From: Bacillota bacterium
Lineage (GTDB): Bacteria > Bacillota > Sulfobacillia > JAJYWN01
Direction of reading: 5' to 3'
DNA: 35,472 nucleotides
NCBI GenBank assembly: GCA_021791495.1
Contig: JAJYWN010000049.1
Span: forward strand, 1 to 35,472
Below the pieces are notes generated by a model, which had not been told where the DNA came from, did no database searches, and saw only the letters and a list, made by a program, of their open reading frames with translations. Made by a program: the position numbers and the translations under genes. Of the stretch, positions 14,253 to 21,653 are shown piece after piece (the first letter of the stretch is position 1; each line of letters begins with the position of its first letter).

Positions 14253-16382
14253 TCACTCTTCCTGGCCGCCGAAGGCCATGGTCATGGCATAGGCCAGGAA
14301 ACCGGCACAAGTAGCGAACGCCGCGCCCGTTTTGGCCACCCCCGTGTGGCGGTCGAAGGCCTCGCAGGCCAGGCCCCCGTCCAGCGGAGCTTCCAAGAGG
14401 ATGTTCTTGACCTCGCCGGCGCGCCCGCACAGGAGGCTGTTGAAGACGCCCATGACGAAGGGATGTTCCGAGTGGGGGCACCCTACTTCCTTGAAGCGGC
14501 CGTCCAGGTACGAGTGGGGATTGTCTCCCGAGTGGATCCAGGCCACGGTGTTACGGAAAACCTCGTTGTCCGGGCCGCACAGGCCGTAGTACGAAAGCAG
14601 CTGTAGCGAACCGGGCGGCTCATCGTAGACCTTGGTCGCCCCGTCGAGGTCGGTGGACCAGGCAAACATGGGACCAAGAGGGCCGGGCACCACACAATGG
14701 CGGAAGATGGCCTGGCGCACCGCGGCGGCCATCCGTAGGTAGATGCCTCCCGCTATCTCTGGCTCTGTGGCCGCGGAGGCCCGCAGCCCGGCCGGCGCGG
14801 ATAGGTCTTTCTGGCCCGGACCGTCGGGCGCAGCCTCTTCCCGGGGGAAGGCGGTGAAGAGAGGTCGGTACAAACCGGCGTCGCTCCAGGCGGCGATAAT
14901 GTCGAACATCAGGGCGACCAGCGTGTTGTCGTAGGTGACATAACGATAGGCAGCCGGATCGTCGGACGGGTAGAGGAAGGTCTCAAACAGCCATTCCGAC
15001 GGGTGTTTCTTCAAAAACAGTCGTCGCTCGATGTAGCGGAGCCCTTCGGACACGCCTTCGCGGCGGAGCAGGGAGTCGTCGCCTGTCCGGTGGCGGTAGG
15101 CTTCCAGGGCGATGACGTAGGCGCACAGCTCGTCCAGTTCGAATCCCGGGTAGAGCAGGGTGCCATCCATGTATAGGCTGTGGATGCCGGCGTGCTTGAG
15201 GTACCGCGTGAAACACGCCTCCAGCATCTCGCGGGCCGTCTCCGGCTCGACCATCAGGACGGCGGGGAAGCTCCAGAGGAGGGTGTCGCGAGCCCAGAAG
15301 GCGGCGCTTACGTAGTAGAGGGGGCTACGCGAGGTGACGCACGCCAGCTCCTCGGTATCGACGGTCCGGCCCACGGCGAAGAAGTAGTTGAAGAAGAGGT
15401 TGAGGTTGGCCACAGCCTCCAACTTCTCACGCTCGGAGGGCTCGGCCTTGGTAAGCCCGACGGCTTTCCGCTCCAGCCACTTCGAAGTCCTGTCCAACAG
15501 TTCCCTCCAGCCGTGCCGGGCCAAGTCGATGGCGGTGGTCCGCGCCCCATCACCCTCGCGGTTCACGCCGAAATAAAAGGCCAGCTCCACCGAGGCCGGC
15601 TCCATCAAACGCCCGTCAGGGGACCCTGCGTCTCCCCCATCCACCGCCGGCGCAGGCGGCAGGTCGAAGGTCTTGGAGAACTCGTAGGTGATGGGCTCGC
15701 CGGCGGTAACGGCAAAATCCGTTCGATCCCCCCGCCCGTTTCCCCGCGAAACAGGTCGCCAGACACAGGTATCCAGCGCCTCCGAGGGCATCAGCGCCCA
15801 CCCCAGAATGGCCGGACCGGGACGAACTTCGAAGACTGGGCCGGCCGTCCACCGGTCCCGGTGAACACGGTGGGTGCCGTAAACCCGTCCAGAGGTATAC
15901 ACAGTCTGGAGAGTGTCACCCCATTGGCCGCGCAGGCCAAGGGTGACTCGCGCGGGCCCGGTCGCGGTAGCGGTGGCGCGCAGGACGTAAACGAAACCCT
16001 TGTCGCCCAGTGGAGCGAAAATGGTACCTTCCAAGGTAACGCCGACGTCGGCAAGAGCGGCTCGGAAGCGGGGAAGGAAGTGCCCCAGTCTCTCCCAAGA
16101 GAGGTGCCCCGCCAGAGGCAGTTCGTGGCCGTTCACGCGAAGGAACGGCGCCAGGAGGGCGGGTTCACCGGGGCCGGCCGGGACCTTGGAGGCCGGCGCC
16201 GGGCCGCAGACCTCTAAGAGGGAGACCAGGCCCATGTGCAGCGCGCCGAAACGTTCCACTGCTCCGTCTGCAGGCCGAATGGTGGGCAGACTGACAAACT
16301 CATTCCCCGTGGGTATGAAAGCCACGTGGTCGCTGATTTCCTCGGGAGTGGTGAGGAGCCGCCCCTCGTGGGTCTTGACCAA
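14253..16382 (-). CDS. six-hairpin glycosidase, GH125-like
   Basis: A 709-residue protein. The first ~300 residues look beta-rich and family-unspecific; the remainder resembles an (alpha/alpha)6 glycosidase. It shares landmarks with GH125 exo-alpha-mannosidases: FWARDT in place of WLRDS, then PPGSLQLLSYYGL, the SGDNPHSYLDG segment, and near the C-terminus a GCPHSEH and CEAFDRHTG pattern. The assignment is by my recall of motif order, so family membership is likely but the substrate is not known. There is no signal peptide, so it should be cytoplasmic. TTG 16382 is the start, with GGAGGAGGG upstream. It is the third gene of a reverse-strand operon, 4 bp after the nitrilase stop. Confidence 0.75.
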   Translation of the reverse strand: MVKTHEGRLLTTPEEISDHVAFIPTGNEFVSLPTIRPADGAVERFGALHMGLVSLLEVCGPAPASKVPAGPGEPALLAPFLRVNGHELPLAGHLSWERLGHFLPRFRAALADVGVTLEGTIFAPLGDKGFVYVLRATATATGPARVTLGLRGQWGDTLQTVYTSGRVYGTHRVHRDRWTAGPVFEVRPGPAILGWALMPSEALDTCVWRPVSRGNGRGDRTDFAVTAGEPITYEFSKTFDLPPAPAVDGGDAGSPDGRLMEPASVELAFYFGVNREGDGARTTAIDLARHGWRELLDRTSKWLERKAVGLTKAEPSEREKLEAVANLNLFFNYFFAVGRTVDTEELACVTSRSPLYYVSAAFWARDTLLWSFPAVLMVEPETAREMLEACFTRYLKHAGIHSLYMDGTLLYPGFELDELCAYVIALEAYRHRTGDDSLLRREGVSEGLRYIERRLFLKKHPSEWLFETFLYPSDDPAAYRYVTYDNTLVALMFDIIAAWSDAGLYRPLFTAFPREEAAPDGPGQKDLSAPAGLRASAATEPEIAGGIYLRMAAAVRQAIFRHCVVPGPLGPMFAWSTDLDGATKVYDEPPGSLQLLSYYGLCGPDNEVFRNTVAWIHSGDNPHSYLDGRFKEVGCPHSEHPFVMGVFNSLLCGRAGEVKNILLEAPLDGGLACEAFDRHTGVAKTGAAFATCAGFLAYAMTMAFGGQEE

Positions 16383-16386
16383 GAGA

Positions 16387-17673
16387 CTATCCCTCCTCCG
16401 GCTCTAGGACGCGCCGCCGCCGCCCCCAGCGCTCCTCGGCCTTGATGTAGACGTCGGGTAGCTCGCGCCGGAGCAGGTCCAGGTTCAGGCCACGCTCCGG
16501 GCCACTCTTGCGCCGGTACTCGCGGAGGGCGGCGAGATCCAGGTCGGCTAGGACGAGGTCGGACCCGGTGGGGTGAGCGGCCATAGCCACCACACCGTCA
16601 CCCGCCGCCGTGAGGTCGACGGGGGCGAAGACCGACGCCCGCTGTGTGGCCGGCATGCCCAGGAAGCGACCGACCATGGGGCTCATCACGCCATAAACGC
16701 CGCTTTCCTGGACACGGGGCCAGATGCCCCGGAGGGCCTTCCAGAAGTTGTACTCCTGGGTGTCGGCCACCGGCAGCAAGACCACCTCGCAGCCCAGGAG
16801 CGAGGCGACGCGGAAGGTCTCGAAATAGGTGGCGTCCATGCACACCGGCATGGCCATCTTGGCCCAGGGGGTCTCGAAAACCGGCAGCGACGCCCCGCGC
16901 GAGAGCCCAAGGCGCGCTTCCGTGGGAATTAGGTGGATCTTCTCATGCGTGCCGAGAAGGCGGCCGTCCGGATCGTAGAAATAGGCGCGGTTGCAGACCG
17001 GCTCCGGACCCTGTGCCCGGCCCACCCGCGTTCCCCCGCCCGCGCCCGCGCCCGCGGCGCCGGCGCCCGGGCCGGCCAGATCGGGCAGGTTAGCGCTGCC
17101 CGCGGCGATATACACGCCGAAGCCGCGGGCCAGCATAGAAAAGGTGGTGTCGTACACACGCCAGGTGGCCGGGCCGATGAAACGCAGCACGTCCAAGGGG
17201 TTGGGTCCGTCAGCCGCCCTCTGCGCGTGCCGTCGTCGCCTCCGCCCCTTGGCGACATCCTCCGCCGCCTGGTCCGATAGGGCCTCGTCCTCCTCGGGCG
17301 GCTGGGCGCCGGGGTCAGGTAGGCCGTGGGTCAGGAGCCGCTCCACCCCAGGTAGAAGACCCAGAAGCTCGGTGCCCAGTTCCTCCGGGAAAAGGATGAT
17401 CTGCGCCCCTCCCTCCACCGCACGTTCCACGGCCTCGAAGGCCCGCCGCACGAAATGGTGAGGGTGGTGAGCCAGTTGGAAGTCCACCTGGACGGCCGCT
17501 ACCCGGACGGTATCGGGAGCCGCGGTGATGCGGCTAATGGCGCAGTTATCCGAATGGCGGATGTGCTTGGAGGCCAGGTAGTGCTCCACCGATCTGGCGC
17601 TGGCCAAGTAATCCAGATAGGTGCCGAAGGCTTTCTCCTGAATCCGGCCGACGGCGGTGGTGAACCAGCTCAA
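16387..17673 (-). CDS. carbon-nitrogen hydrolase (nitrilase superfamily), catalytically intact
   Basis: A 428-residue nitrilase-superfamily amidohydrolase with a complete catalytic triad: Glu97 in FPEE, Lys245 in HEKIHL and Cys278 in PVCMD. It carries a ~55-residue N-terminal extension, a charged linker (about 125-152, acidic then poly-Arg) and a Gly/Ala-rich insert (about 200-215), all absent from typical ~280-residue members. The TTG start at 17673 overlaps the stop of the upstream pseudo-nitrilase as TTGA, with GGGGGTGAG upstream, so the two are translationally coupled. The substrate (amide, nitrile or N-carbamoyl) is unknown. The C-terminal pattern ADLDL...NLDLL...VY is shared with its neighbour. 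Confidence 0.9.
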   Translation of the reverse strand: MSWFTTAVGRIQEKAFGTYLDYLASARSVEHYLASKHIRHSDNCAISRITAAPDTVRVAAVQVDFQLAHHPHHFVRRAFEAVERAVEGGAQIILFPEELGTELLGLLPGVERLLTHGLPDPGAQPPEEDEALSDQAAEDVAKGRRRRRHAQRAADGPNPLDVLRFIGPATWRVYDTTFSMLARGFGVYIAAGSANLPDLAGPGAGAAGAGAGGGTRVGRAQGPEPVCNRAYFYDPDGRLLGTHEKIHLIPTEARLGLSRGASLPVFETPWAKMAMPVCMDATYFETFRVASLLGCEVVLLPVADTQEYNFWKALRGIWPRVQESGVYGVMSPMVGRFLGMPATQRASVFAPVDLTAAGDGVVAMAAHPTGSDLVLADLDLAALREYRRKSGPERGLNLDLLRRELPDVYIKAEERWGRRRRVLEPEEG

Positions 17674-18584
17674 GGGGTCTCACCCCCATCGCCGGTCTCT
17701 CGGGAGCCCGCCGGAGTCTTTCCGTAGACACCCGGGAAAAAGGAGCGGTAGAAGTCCAAGTTCTGCTGCTCCCACAGAGAGTAGCCGTCCACCGTGCGCT
17801 GCAAGGCGTCGAAATCCAGGTCCGCCACCACCAGCCCCGGCTCGGCGCTTCCGGCCGCCGAGAGGCCATCGGCCCATTGGCCCGGGTCGATGGCTTTCGG
17901 GTCCACACCAATCTGGGCCAGGATCCCGGTTTCGCCCGGCGTCATCTCGCAGGGAGCGAAGATGGCCGAGCGGCCGGCATAGGAATGGGCCGTACCAGAC
18001 CCGACCAGGCACGCCTCCAGACCGAACACCTGGTTCTGCTGCACTTGTTGCCATATGGCCGCCACCTGGCGCCAGGGACTATAGGGCGCCCGCATGGCGA
18101 CCGGGGCCAGGAGCAGGGCGGCCCCCTTCAAGGTCAGAATCCGCGCCACTTCCGGATACCAGGCGTCCGACCCCACCAAAAAGCCTGCCTTCAGCCCCGC
18201 GGGCGCCGGCGGAGGGAGGGAAATGGGCTCCAAGGTAGTGCCCGGCACGATGCCGCCGACCCGTTCCTCCGGAAGCACCTGCGTCTGAGCCTGCCGGCCG
18301 AGGAGGCGTCCGTCCGTCCCGAAGAGGTAGCCCCCGCGGGCGGTCCCCGTGGGGCCCGACGTTTCGGCCGCGAACCCAAGCATAAGGCCGGTCTCCCGTG
18401 CCAGTGCCGCTACGGCGCCGAAAAAGGCGCCGTCGTCGCTCAACGTTACCGGCAGCAGGGGAAAGAGGACGAGGTGGCAGCCGGCCTCCTTGGCCTGAAG
18501 CGCCCACGGTCGAAAACCTTCGGGCCCTTCGGGACTCGTCCCTAAATGGATACTTGCCGTCATTTGGGCCACGGCGACCCGCAT
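17670..18584 (-). CDS. nitrilase-fold protein lacking the catalytic triad (pseudoenzyme)
   Basis: About 304 residues of nitrilase-like sequence, clearly related to the gene downstream: aligned stretches include DGRLLG, the D-A-x-Y-x-E segment, and the C-terminal ADLDF...NLDF...VY. All three catalytic positions are replaced: Glu becomes Leu43 (FPLLP), Lys becomes Gln100 (RQAQTQ) and Cys becomes Gly138 (LVGSDAW). The frame is open and well conserved, so it is not simply a decayed gene; I infer a structural or regulatory partner of the intact nitrilase. ATG 18584 fits the family N-terminus (MRVAVAQM) and has AAAGGGA upstream; ATG 18617 would add 11 basic residues and also has a ribosome site. 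Confidence 0.88.
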   Translation of the reverse strand: MRVAVAQMTASIHLGTSPEGPEGFRPWALQAKEAGCHLVLFPLLPVTLSDDGAFFGAVAALARETGLMLGFAAETSGPTGTARGGYLFGTDGRLLGRQAQTQVLPEERVGGIVPGTTLEPISLPPPAPAGLKAGFLVGSDAWYPEVARILTLKGAALLLAPVAMRAPYSPWRQVAAIWQQVQQNQVFGLEACLVGSGTAHSYAGRSAIFAPCEMTPGETGILAQIGVDPKAIDPGQWADGLSAAGSAEPGLVVADLDFDALQRTVDGYSLWEQQNLDFYRSFFPGVYGKTPAGSRETGDGGETP

Positions 18585-18707
18585 CGTCTTTTTCCCTTTC
18601 CCATTTCTGGAGACCATCCTATATTCTTTCCCCTGCCCCGTTCACCTCCGGTCTTTCGCCAACGGAGTAGTGAGAGCCAGTGAAGTCGTGCCAGTAGAGT
18701 AGTGTCC

Positions 18708-18737
18708 TTGACCGCTCCGCGCGACCGATGCTATAAT
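18708..18737 (+). promoter_or_regulatory. sigma-A-type promoter for the ABC exporter operon
   Basis: TTGACC (18708-18713), an 18-bp spacer and a perfect TATAAT (18732-18737). Transcription should begin near 18744, giving a leader of about 190 nt before the ATPase start. It is the strongest promoter match I found in the window. Confidence 0.82.
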
Positions 18738-18743
18738 CTGGCT

Positions 18744-18934
18744 GTTGAATTCCTAATCTTTCCGGAAGGGGGCGGCAGACGTGACAAGGTGTGTCATAGG
18801 TAACAGCCTGGTCGAAGCCTGCCGCCGGTCCGCGCTCTAACCCAGCATTTTTCGGGAGAGTCCGTCTCCCCTTGGATTGGCAGGAGGCTTCCTCCTGCCA
18901 CTTTTCTGTTTTCAGAAGGGAGAACGGACTAGCC
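18744..18934 (+). ncRNA. candidate cis-regulatory leader RNA (riboswitch-like attenuator)
   Basis: The leader folds into several perfect helices. P1 is GGCGGCAG (18771-18778) with CTGCCGCC (18819-18826). It encloses TGACA/TGTCA (18782-18786 with 18792-18796) and a short AGG/CCT (18798-18800 with 18807-18809), a three-way junction. Next comes GGGAGA/TCTCCC (18854-18859 with 18865-18870), then a strong terminator. CCTGCC (18818-18823), mostly within the P1 3' arm, is complementary to GGCAGG (18879-18884) in the terminator's 5' arm, so P1-plus-terminator and antiterminator are mutually exclusive. I do not recognise T-box, SAM-I, TPP, cobalamin, fluoride, c-di-GMP or guanidine-I consensus elements. 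The ligand, and whether it is a true riboswitch, are unknown. Confidence 0.6.
18878..18912 (+). terminator. intrinsic terminator in the ABC operon leader
   Basis: TGGCAGGAGG (18878-18887) pairs perfectly with CCTCCTGCCA (18891-18900), followed by CTTTTCTGTTTT. It stands only 22 nt before the ATPase start codon and after the promoter, so it can only act as an attenuator of its own operon. Its 5' arm can instead pair with 18818-18823. Confidence 0.8.
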
Positions 18935-19981
18935 ATGCCTCTAATCGAAGTCTCCCGCCTCACCAAGGTCTACCAGGTCCCTCTGCGTCAACCGGGTTTC
19001 ACCGGCGCGGCGCTGTCGCTGGTCCGGCCGTCCTACAAAGCCGTGACGGCGGTGGACGGCATCGACTTCACCATCCAGGCGGGTGAGATGGTCGGTTACA
19101 TTGGCCCCAACGGGGCGGGGAAGTCCACTACCATCAAGCTATTGTGCGGGGTCCTCGCCCCGACGTCTGGCTCCGTCTCGGTCGGGGGCTTGGACCCGCA
19201 CCGGCGACGGATGGAAAACGCGCGACGCATCGGGTTGGTTTACGGCCAGCGCAGCCAGCTCCTGTGGGACCTGCCGGTGCGTGAGACCTTCTACTTGCTG
19301 CGGCGGATCTACCAGGTCCCCGAGAGTACATATCGCGAGAACCTGGCCGACTTCGGCCGCACCTTCGAGATCGATGCCGTCTGGGACACGCCAGTGCGCC
19401 TCTTGTCCTTGGGACAACGGATGCGGGCAGAGCTAGCGGCCGCTCTCATCCACAGTCCGCCCATCGTCTACCTCGACGAACCCACCATTGGGTTGGACGT
19501 CCTGGCGAAGAGCCGTATCCGGGAATTCCTGCGCCAGATGAACCGGCGTCGGGGGACAACCGTCATTCTCACCACCCACGACCTCCGCGACGTGGAAGAG
19601 GTCTGTGACCGTATTATCATGATCCATCAAGGGCGCTTGGTCTACGACGGAGCGCTGGAAGGTCTGCGCGGGACCTTCGGCGAGCGGTGCACTCTCACAT
19701 TAGAGCTGGAGGAGGCCGCCGGAGGTGCCGTGGCGCCGGAAGTAGCCCTGGACGACGACGTCCGGCTGATCAAGGCCGACGGCAAGCGGGTGGAACTCGC
19801 TTTCGACCGGCGCCGTATCTCGGCCCCAGAGGTCATCGCCCGTGCCTGTGCCGTCCTGCCCGTACGGGATCTGGTCTTGCGCGAGACCGACCTGGAGTCC
19901 GTGGTGAAGCAGGTCTACGGCGGAAACGGGATCGAGAACGGAAACGGAAACGGAGAAGGGAGAGGGGGTGGGGAGCCTTGA
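18935..19981 (+). CDS. ABC transporter ATP-binding protein (ABC-2 exporter type)
   Basis: A 348-residue nucleotide-binding subunit, predicted to drive export through the two permeases downstream. Walker A is GPNGAGKST (57-65), Walker B is IVYLDEPT with the following IGLD, and an H-loop His lies in LTTHD. The signature is LSLGQ (157-161), a usual variant in DUF990-linked ATPases, rather than LSGGQ. ATG 18935 fits the family start; AAGGGAGA lies 12 nt upstream and an in-frame extension overlaps the leader terminator. After the ATPase core comes a C-terminal domain of about 90 residues, ending in an Asn-Gly/Gly-rich repeat tail (bases 19920-19975). The stop overlaps the next TTG start as TTGA. 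Confidence 0.93.
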   Translation: MPLIEVSRLTKVYQVPLRQPGFTGAALSLVRPSYKAVTAVDGIDFTIQAGEMVGYIGPNGAGKSTTIKLLCGVLAPTSGSVSVGGLDPHRRRMENARRIGLVYGQRSQLLWDLPVRETFYLLRRIYQVPESTYRENLADFGRTFEIDAVWDTPVRLLSLGQRMRAELAAALIHSPPIVYLDEPTIGLDVLAKSRIREFLRQMNRRRGTTVILTTHDLRDVEEVCDRIIMIHQGRLVYDGALEGLRGTFGERCTLTLELEEAAGGAVAPEVALDDDVRLIKADGKRVELAFDRRRISAPEVIARACAVLPVRDLVLRETDLESVVKQVYGGNGIENGNGNGEGRGGGEP

Positions 19982-20802
19982 ACGTCCTCACCAACTTCAT
20001 TCCTCTACCCGGCCCTCTTCGCTATCTCGCCTACACCCGGGCCGCGGTCGCTCGCGTCCTGGCTTACCGGGTCAACTTCTGGATGGGGGCCGTGGGGACA
20101 GTCCTGGGGATGACCATCCAATACTACCTTTGGACCGCCATCTACCACGGCGAAGATGGCGCACTGGCGGGCTACGGGGCGGTGGAAGCGCTCACCTACG
20201 TCATCCTGGGCCAGGCGCTCCAAGGCTTCCTCCATCCCGAGGGCGATCCCCTCGGACGGAAAGTACGCGACGGGTCCATCGCCGTGGACCTGGCGCGGCC
20301 GGCCGATTGGCAGTGGGTCGTGTTCTGGGACTACCTTGGCGGCAGTCTGTTCCGGTGGTTGACCACCGGCGTCCCAGCCATGGTGCTCTTCACCGTGGTG
20401 GGGGCCGTGGCGGCGCCACCCTCATTGGGGGCCTTCCTGGTTTTCCTGGTCTCCGCGTTCCTGGGTTTCGTTCTCCTCTTCGCCTGGCACTTCCTCTTTG
20501 GGCTCCTATCCTTCTGGACCAAGGGGGGAGGGCTCATCGACCTCAAGGCCACCGCGGTCTCTCTGTTCTCCGGGGCGCTGGTGCCGCTGGAGTTCTACCC
20601 GCCGGGGCTGCGGCGGATGGCCATGGCCCTGCCTTTCCGGGGCATCTACTACCTGCCCCTATCCATCTACACCGGACGCCTCGGCGCCGGAGAGGCGGCC
20701 GGGGCGTTGGGGTGGCAGGCGGCTTGGGCGGTGGGGCTCTTCTTGATGGCAAGAGTCTTGTGGAGGCGGGCCACACGCAGCCTGGTTATCCATGGAGGGT
20801 AG
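19978..20802 (+). CDS. ABC-2 family permease, subunit 1 (DUF990-like)
   Basis: A 274-residue membrane protein with about six hydrophobic helices, matching the ABC-2 (DUF990, ABC2_membrane_6) permease type in length. The segments YRVNFWMGAVG and SGALVPLEFYPPGLRRM are typical of the family. Start TTG 19978 overlaps the ATPase stop and has a purine-rich ribosome site (AGAGGGGGTGGGGAG); the open frame upstream is the antisense-like reading of the ATPase tail. It forms a heterodimeric channel with the next gene, by inference. The exported substrate is unknown. The stop is 8 bp before the second permease. Confidence 0.88.
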   Translation: MNVLTNFIPLPGPLRYLAYTRAAVARVLAYRVNFWMGAVGTVLGMTIQYYLWTAIYHGEDGALAGYGAVEALTYVILGQALQGFLHPEGDPLGRKVRDGSIAVDLARPADWQWVVFWDYLGGSLFRWLTTGVPAMVLFTVVGAVAAPPSLGAFLVFLVSAFLGFVLLFAWHFLFGLLSFWTKGGGLIDLKATAVSLFSGALVPLEFYPPGLRRMAMALPFRGIYYLPLSIYTGRLGAGEAAGALGWQAAWAVGLFLMARVLWRRATRSLVIHGG

Positions 20803-20810
20803 ATAGACCG

Positions 20811-21653
20811 ATGAGGACTTTCGGCTCCTACGTGGGCCTTTACTTGTGCTATCTGAGGGTGAACTGGCTGGCGCTAATGGCCTATCCCACCGAGTTCTGG
20901 GGCAATAACCTCGGCAATGTGGCCGGGAACCTCCTCGGCATCGCGGCCGTGGGAATCGTCTTCGGTCACGTTAGGGCCATCGGGGGATGGAGTTTCGACC
21001 AAGTGCTGTTCCTCTATGCCTTGGCCATGGTGGCCCGTTCACTGTGGCACCTGTTCATGGTGAACTGCTTGAACCTTCCCTACTACGTGCAGCGGGGGAC
21101 CCTGGACCGCCTGATGGTCCGGCCGGTCAACATCCTTTTTCAGGTCTACGCGGACTACCTCGACAACGATGATTGGGGGGAGGCCGTCATCGGCCTGGTC
21201 GTTCTCGGGACGCTGTCGGTAAGGCTTGGACTGGTGGGGGTCGGCCCCGAGGTTGGTCTCGCACGCAGCCTCACCAACGTTCTGTGGCTGGCGGTCATCG
21301 CCCTCTCGGGGACGGCCATCTTCGCCGCCATCCACCTGGCCGCCAACACGACCTCCTTCTGGCTGGTGCAGGCCGGCGCTGTAAGCCAGTTGGTGTGGCA
21401 GGTCGATGGGTTCTCCCGCTACCCGTTGAATGTGTACAGCCGTCCGCTACGGTTCGTCTTGAGCTGGCTCCTGCCTTTCGGGTTTATCAACTTCTATCCG
21501 GCGCACCTCTTCTTCGGGCCCTCGGGGGTCCCGGAGGGCGGCGGTCTCCTGTGGGTGGCTCGCCTCACTCCCTTGGTGGCGGCGGCCGCCTTCGGCCTGG
21601 CTTACCGCTTCTGGCAGGCCGGGCTGGACCACTATCAGGGCGCGGGCAGCTGA
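20811..21653 (+). CDS. ABC-2 family permease, subunit 2 (DUF990-like)
   Basis: A 280-residue polytopic protein paralogous to subunit 1, with segments such as YPTEFWGNNLGN near the start and RGTLDRLMVRPVN in the middle, matching RDGSIAVDLARPAD of subunit 1. ATG 20811 is supported by GGAGGG (20794-20799). The helices end with LAYRFWQAGL, as in related permeases. With the ATPase and subunit 1 it makes a complete exporter of the ATPase-plus-two-permeases type. No peptidase, lantibiotic or immunity gene is nearby, so the cargo cannot be inferred from context. Confidence 0.88.
   Translation: MRTFGSYVGLYLCYLRVNWLALMAYPTEFWGNNLGNVAGNLLGIAAVGIVFGHVRAIGGWSFDQVLFLYALAMVARSLWHLFMVNCLNLPYYVQRGTLDRLMVRPVNILFQVYADYLDNDDWGEAVIGLVVLGTLSVRLGLVGVGPEVGLARSLTNVLWLAVIALSGTAIFAAIHLAANTTSFWLVQAGAVSQLVWQVDGFSRYPLNVYSRPLRFVLSWLLPFGFINFYPAHLFFGPSGVPEGGGLLWVARLTPLVAAAAFGLAYRFWQAGLDHYQGAGS

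Follow-up and report, generated by a model that had tools for sequence, protein, structure and literature searches.

The leader preceding a three-gene ABC-2 exporter operon in the window (the complete 35,472-nucleotide stretch of DNA analyzed here, from a 4.2-Mb genome) is likely to be an attenuator governed by translation of a short upstream open reading frame (uORF) encoding a leader peptide, rather than a metabolite riboswitch. The operon encodes an ATPase (ABC_tran, 348 aa; 18935..19981, forward strand) and two PF06182 permeases (19978..20802 and 20802..21653, both on the forward strand), the second of which presents a start codon at about 20811 and has no PDB relatives at E 1. We take COG4586/4587/3694 to be the COG numbers for this exporter type of ATPase plus two permeases; no paper treating the three together was found in the literature searched.

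The leader is preceded by a sigma-70-type promoter (TTGACC-18-TATAAT; 18708..18737, forward strand), which had been recognized as a consensus promoter in an initial annotation of this DNA and which matches the consensus at 11 of 12 positions, in addition to carrying a TG-extended -10 element. The transcribed leader spans ~190 nt, and as a whole it is more stable than its shuffled counterparts (z -3.2). Folding bears out two further elements of that annotation: an 8-bp closing helix (P1), formed by 18771..18778 and 18819..18826 (forward strand), and an intrinsic terminator (18878..18912, forward strand) consisting of a 10-bp hairpin (18878-18900) and a tail (18901-18912) that is U-rich yet interrupted. 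For P1, shuffling returned a p-value of 0.0145 at its place in the window. The three-way junction that P1 had been described as enclosing did not withstand folding, since an imperfect stem is preferred (-26.2 kcal/mol, versus -23.1 kcal/mol for the best multiloop); among the 242 suboptimal folds of the 56 nt enclosed by P1, four contain a multiloop, the best of them being 3 kcal/mol worse than the imperfect stem.

The initial annotation overlooked a 19-codon uORF that runs from a GTG to a TAA codon within this region (18781..18840, forward strand; MTRCVIGNSLVEACRRSAL). It is preceded, 8 nt before the GTG, by the Shine-Dalgarno (SD) sequence AAGGGGG (18766..18772, forward strand), with a predicted anti-SD duplex of -11.4 kcal/mol, and the uORF is predicted to be translated. 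The 5' strand of P1 lies between the uORF SD and start codon, and its 3' strand falls inside uORF codons 13-16. After a 1 kcal/mol penalty for the GTG start, an SD-preceded uORF of this quality arises in 0.8% of dinucleotide shuffles (p 0.008).

A tblastn search of 154 genomes of the class identified the closest leader-bearing ATPase orthologues in genomes G067, G027 and G042, at 53-56% identity. A short ORF with an SD is present in all four orthologous leaders (MARSYQKVTAG in G067, MAQTFAEVVPG in G027 and MTLLPITRVNILPIAG in G042), with excellent SDs and p-values against dinucleotide shuffles of <0.001 in G067, <0.001 in G027 and 0.039 in G042. The four leaders also have in common a TGCTAYAAT promoter element and a P1-like helix that brings together the stretch between SD and start codon and the end of the uORF. 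Counted from the assumed start of transcription, the uORF begins at a distance of 28-29 nt in the three relatives and of 37 nt, which is 8-9 nt more, in the window. The peptide itself is not conserved, given that the window uORF has a GTG start and encodes a peptide unlike the other three.

The initial annotation had read the leader as a riboswitch matching no known class, and had proposed an Rfam search together with a check of orthologous leaders for covariation in P1. Nothing near the gathering score was obtained from Rfam, and neither gathering nor permissive thresholds returned a match for any of the four leaders. Compensatory changes are present in P1, as counted by hand on few sequences, the searched genomes having yielded only four leaders. 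Between the window (GGCGGCAG/CTGCCGCC) and G042 (ATGGGTAG/CTGCCCAT), three of the eight pairs are compensated on both sides and one on one side, with pairing kept throughout; between G067 and G027, one double and one single change among six pairs likewise preserve pairing. The shuffle p-values for P1 in the three relatives (0.18, 0.13 and 0.0155) are, like that of the window, modest.

A covarying P1, a real terminator that engages in mutually exclusive pairing and the lack of an Rfam match are what would be expected of a new riboswitch class, in which P1 would enclose an aptamer recognizing some small-molecule cargo of the pump and, when closed, would allow the terminator to form. The interior of P1, however, shares no motif with G042, G067 and G027 beyond the start-codon region, so that only the helices and the uORF start persist across the four leaders and no conserved aptamer sequence is found within the closing helix. 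The portion of the leader that precedes the terminator does not exceed shuffles in stability (z -0.25), the predicted fold departs from a three-way junction, and an aptamer would leave the SD-preceded uORF of every leader unexplained. We hence regard a riboswitch as improbable. The recurrence of the uORF, the placement of the P1 5' strand, the lack of aptamer-like conservation and the covarying flanking helix instead make a ribosome on the uORF the simplest sensor.

The distribution of the leader is narrow. In the ATPase gene tree, the four leader-bearing ATPases fall in a single clade (support 100/99), together with five further sequences from two other families for which no such leader was detected and in which it appears to have been lost. 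The ATPase locus of G067 (L025) is also present on the 10,544-base contig DYFO01000055.1 (L054), from a metagenome-assembled genome of the class that is filed as Symbiobacterium thermophilum. Most other orthologues in the class and phylum begin directly after another gene or without a uORF leader, no such leader precedes the three ATPase paralogues encoded in the window's own genome, and the window leader used as DNA query against 101 genomes returned only short, chance-like matches. Two extra DNA matches obtained with the G042 leader as query were not leader-like on inspection. In G084 (L048), the source of another ATPase relative, an SD-preceded short ORF (MLPGRDGRILG) lies ~200 bases before the ATPase match, in the orientation of the match, and is overlapped by promoter-like sequence.

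The small number of homologues, and the fact that most related operons lack the leader, would fit a leader that acts constitutively, its hairpin being incidental and its short ORF a product of chance, or one regulated by a leader-binding protein. Both options seem very unlikely to us, as separate shuffle tests of the uORF, P1 and the pairing with the terminator arm all favor function, and the same arrangement is found in relatives whose ATPases are only 53-56% identical to that of the window. The leader is probably a genuine regulatory element.

The proposed regulatory logic rests on the competition for the 5' arm of the terminator. The complementarity between CCTGCC (18818-18823) and GGCAGG (18879-18884) noted in the initial annotation is present, and it belongs to a longer competing pairing of 16 bp, in which 18815..18832 pairs with 18873..18890 (both on the forward strand), the latter overlapping the terminator 5' arm. 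Both terminator-bearing leaders show complementarity between this arm and the P1 3' region, with predicted duplexes of -23.1 kcal/mol in the window (shuffle p 0.0005) and -23.7 kcal/mol in G042 (p 0.005), and no stretch of the window leader away from the P1 3' region rivals its pairing with the arm. In G042 (L027 / L134), the P1 3' strand and the terminator 5' arm form a perfect 11-bp alternative helix (ACATCCTGCCC/GGGCAGGGTGT), which makes it a cleaner experimental case than the window.

The effect of a translating ribosome was modeled by folding transcripts that end just past the terminator 5' arm while masking the ribosome footprint codon by codon. On these truncated transcripts, a masked ribosome on codons 1-7 of the window uORF yields the 16-bp antiterminator as the minimum-energy fold, and one on codons 1-5 in G042 yields the 11-bp antiterminator; once the ribosome has reached codon 9, and likewise when it sits on a later codon or the stop codon, the antiterminator cannot form, which places the switch at codons 7-9. 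The cost of freeing the terminator arm, calculated as early minus late ribosome, amounts to 5.0 kcal/mol in the window (p 0.06) and 7.4 kcal/mol in G042 (p 0.010), and in shuffled leaders the difference between early and late ribosomes averages about 0. Full-length RNA at equilibrium always prefers the terminator fold. In the ribosome-free transcript ending at 18890 the antiterminator is the minimum-energy fold, and in the one ending a single base earlier P1 is the likelier state. Since full-length RNA always folds into the terminator and ribosome-free truncated RNA favors the antiterminator, the model requires the decision to be kinetic and made co-transcriptionally, as in known attenuators.

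These models outline a four-segment attenuator and a direction of switching that we infer from them. Segment 1 (18771-18778) can pair with segment 2 (18819-18826), or segment 2 and its flanks can pair with segment 3 (18873-18890), which can alternatively pair with segment 4 to form the terminator (18878-18900). These segments and the mutual exclusion of their pairings are evident in the sequence, as is the uORF with its SD, and a diverged relative has an identical arrangement. In the absence of translation, P1 would form and transcription would end before the exporter; under fast translation, the ribosome would pass over segment 2 and the terminator would again form (OFF). A ribosome stalled while initiating on the uORF or shortly afterwards (roughly codons 1-7) would cover segment 1, and as a consequence segment 2 would capture segment 3, the terminator would fail and the exporter would be made (ON). 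The transcriptional OFF-switch logic of the initial annotation holds, with P1 as an anti-antiterminator whose 3' strand is a competing partner for the 5' arm of the terminator; the change lies in the predicted sensor.

A second, translational layer may be provided by a helix absent from the initial annotation. In the minimum-energy fold, the region of the exporter SD (18918-18930) is paired with 18859..18870 (forward strand), which leaves the SD of the ATPase gene (AAGGGAG; 18916..18922, forward strand) mostly paired; the best ungapped stretch of this helix is 7 bp (shuffle p 0.14). It is weaker than the corresponding helices of G067 and G027, formed over the exporter SD by a 14-nt strand that is paired at 13 positions in G067 and at all 14 in G027 (p 0.0005 in G027), and occlusion of the SD reaches significance in only one of the four leaders (p 0.12-0.33 in the others). 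No terminator was evident in the G067 and G027 leaders, for which SD control would seemingly be the sole layer. For some early ribosome positions in G067, the anti-SD strand is predicted to pair elsewhere; no such alternative was evident in G027.

The uORF sequences also bear on what the ribosome might sense. The segments follow the logic of trp/his-type leaders and the uORF overlaps the anti-antiterminator, as would be the case if the early codons sensed amino-acid starvation or charged tRNA. Against this, the four uORFs (MTRCVIG.., MARSYQK.., MAQTFAE.., MTLLPIT..) have no run of a single codon in common, and the operon encodes an exporter instead of a biosynthetic or uptake system. Neither a T-box motif in Rfam searches nor a regulatory-codon run in the four uORFs was detected, and we deem an attenuator of this type quite unlikely.

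For a leader read by ribosomes on the uORF, the natural inducer would most likely be a translation inhibitor. No stall motif is shared among the four uORF peptides, which all begin Met-Ala or Met-Thr. Chloramphenicol and linezolid have been described to stall ribosomes after Ala and, to a lesser extent, after Ser/Thr (PMC8987054); an Ala or Thr at codon 2 is nonetheless a weak hint, because these residues are so common. More speculatively, and with a rather low likelihood, the clade could have retained a ribosome sensor on a single exporter operon while changing its output, with terminator plus SD control in the window and G042 and SD control alone in G067 and G027; the sensor may be tuned to drugs, phenicols/oxazolidinones for instance, that stall ribosomes after Ala/Ser/Thr. 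Were this the case, the exporter family would constitute an unrecognized pump for ribosome-targeting antibiotics.

A ribosome-sensing leader ahead of these genes would point to a translation inhibitor as the exported compound and provides a functional clue, in an uncultured lineage related to Symbiobacterium, to an exporter family composed of an ATPase and two PF06182 permeases. The putative ABC-2 pump probably has a toxic compound as its cargo, and the leader itself offers a ready reporter for finding the inducer. After a gap of 58 nt, the exporter is followed by a gene for a DinB-family protein (PF12867; 21712..22185, forward strand), with no promoter found between them, and this gene is possibly co-transcribed with the exporter. 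Thiol transferases are among the proteins with a DinB fold, so that a detoxification function is possible for this gene, which was not found adjoining the G067 and G027 operons. On the opposite strand upstream of the leader lie two neighboring, divergent nitrilase-superfamily (CN_hydrolase) genes (16387-18617) and a gene (14253-16382) for a 709-aa protein without an NCBIfam family, for which only a weak GH125-like match at the C-terminus was obtained (E 1.3e-8).

The predicted layout is that of known uORF-mediated attenuators of resistance genes, such as those of VmlR and BmrB-BmrCD. In the Bacillus subtilis vmlR leader, the anti-antiterminator contains a uORF and precedes a terminator and a hairpin over the SD; expression is turned on when ribosomes stall during initiation (PMC9226507). 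The likeness is one of layout: a uORF in the first stem-loop (vmlR SL-1), an antiterminator, an intrinsic terminator (vmlR SL-3) and a final SD hairpin. The vmlR uORF, however, has 3 codons (MIN) and an SD that is single-stranded before SL-1, whereas that of the window has 19 codons and an SD partly overlapping P1, and vmlR encodes an ABC-F ribosome-protection factor instead of an ABC-2 exporter. The B. subtilis bmrB-bmrCD system likewise combines a leader-peptide ORF with transcription attenuation before an ABC exporter, and the BmrB leader peptide controls this multidrug exporter in response to lincomycin, erythromycin and chloramphenicol (PMC4191407). Induction by some ribosome-targeting antibiotics is a feature of bmrB-bmrCD; BmrB has 53 codons with the terminator inside it, and BmrCD is a different type of ABC exporter.

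The version proposed for G067 and G027 would be translational and resemble the toiL uORF of Escherichia coli topAI, where stalled ribosomes alter the structure over a downstream SD (PMC12121999), although the toiL system uses Rho-dependent termination and controls a toxin-antitoxin operon. Lastly, the window leader shares the P1/antiterminator/terminator logic of riboswitches in which P1 acts as an anti-antiterminator, and differs from them in lacking a conserved aptamer or Rfam match and in containing a uORF. An anti-antiterminator that contains a uORF can pass for the P1 helix of a riboswitch.
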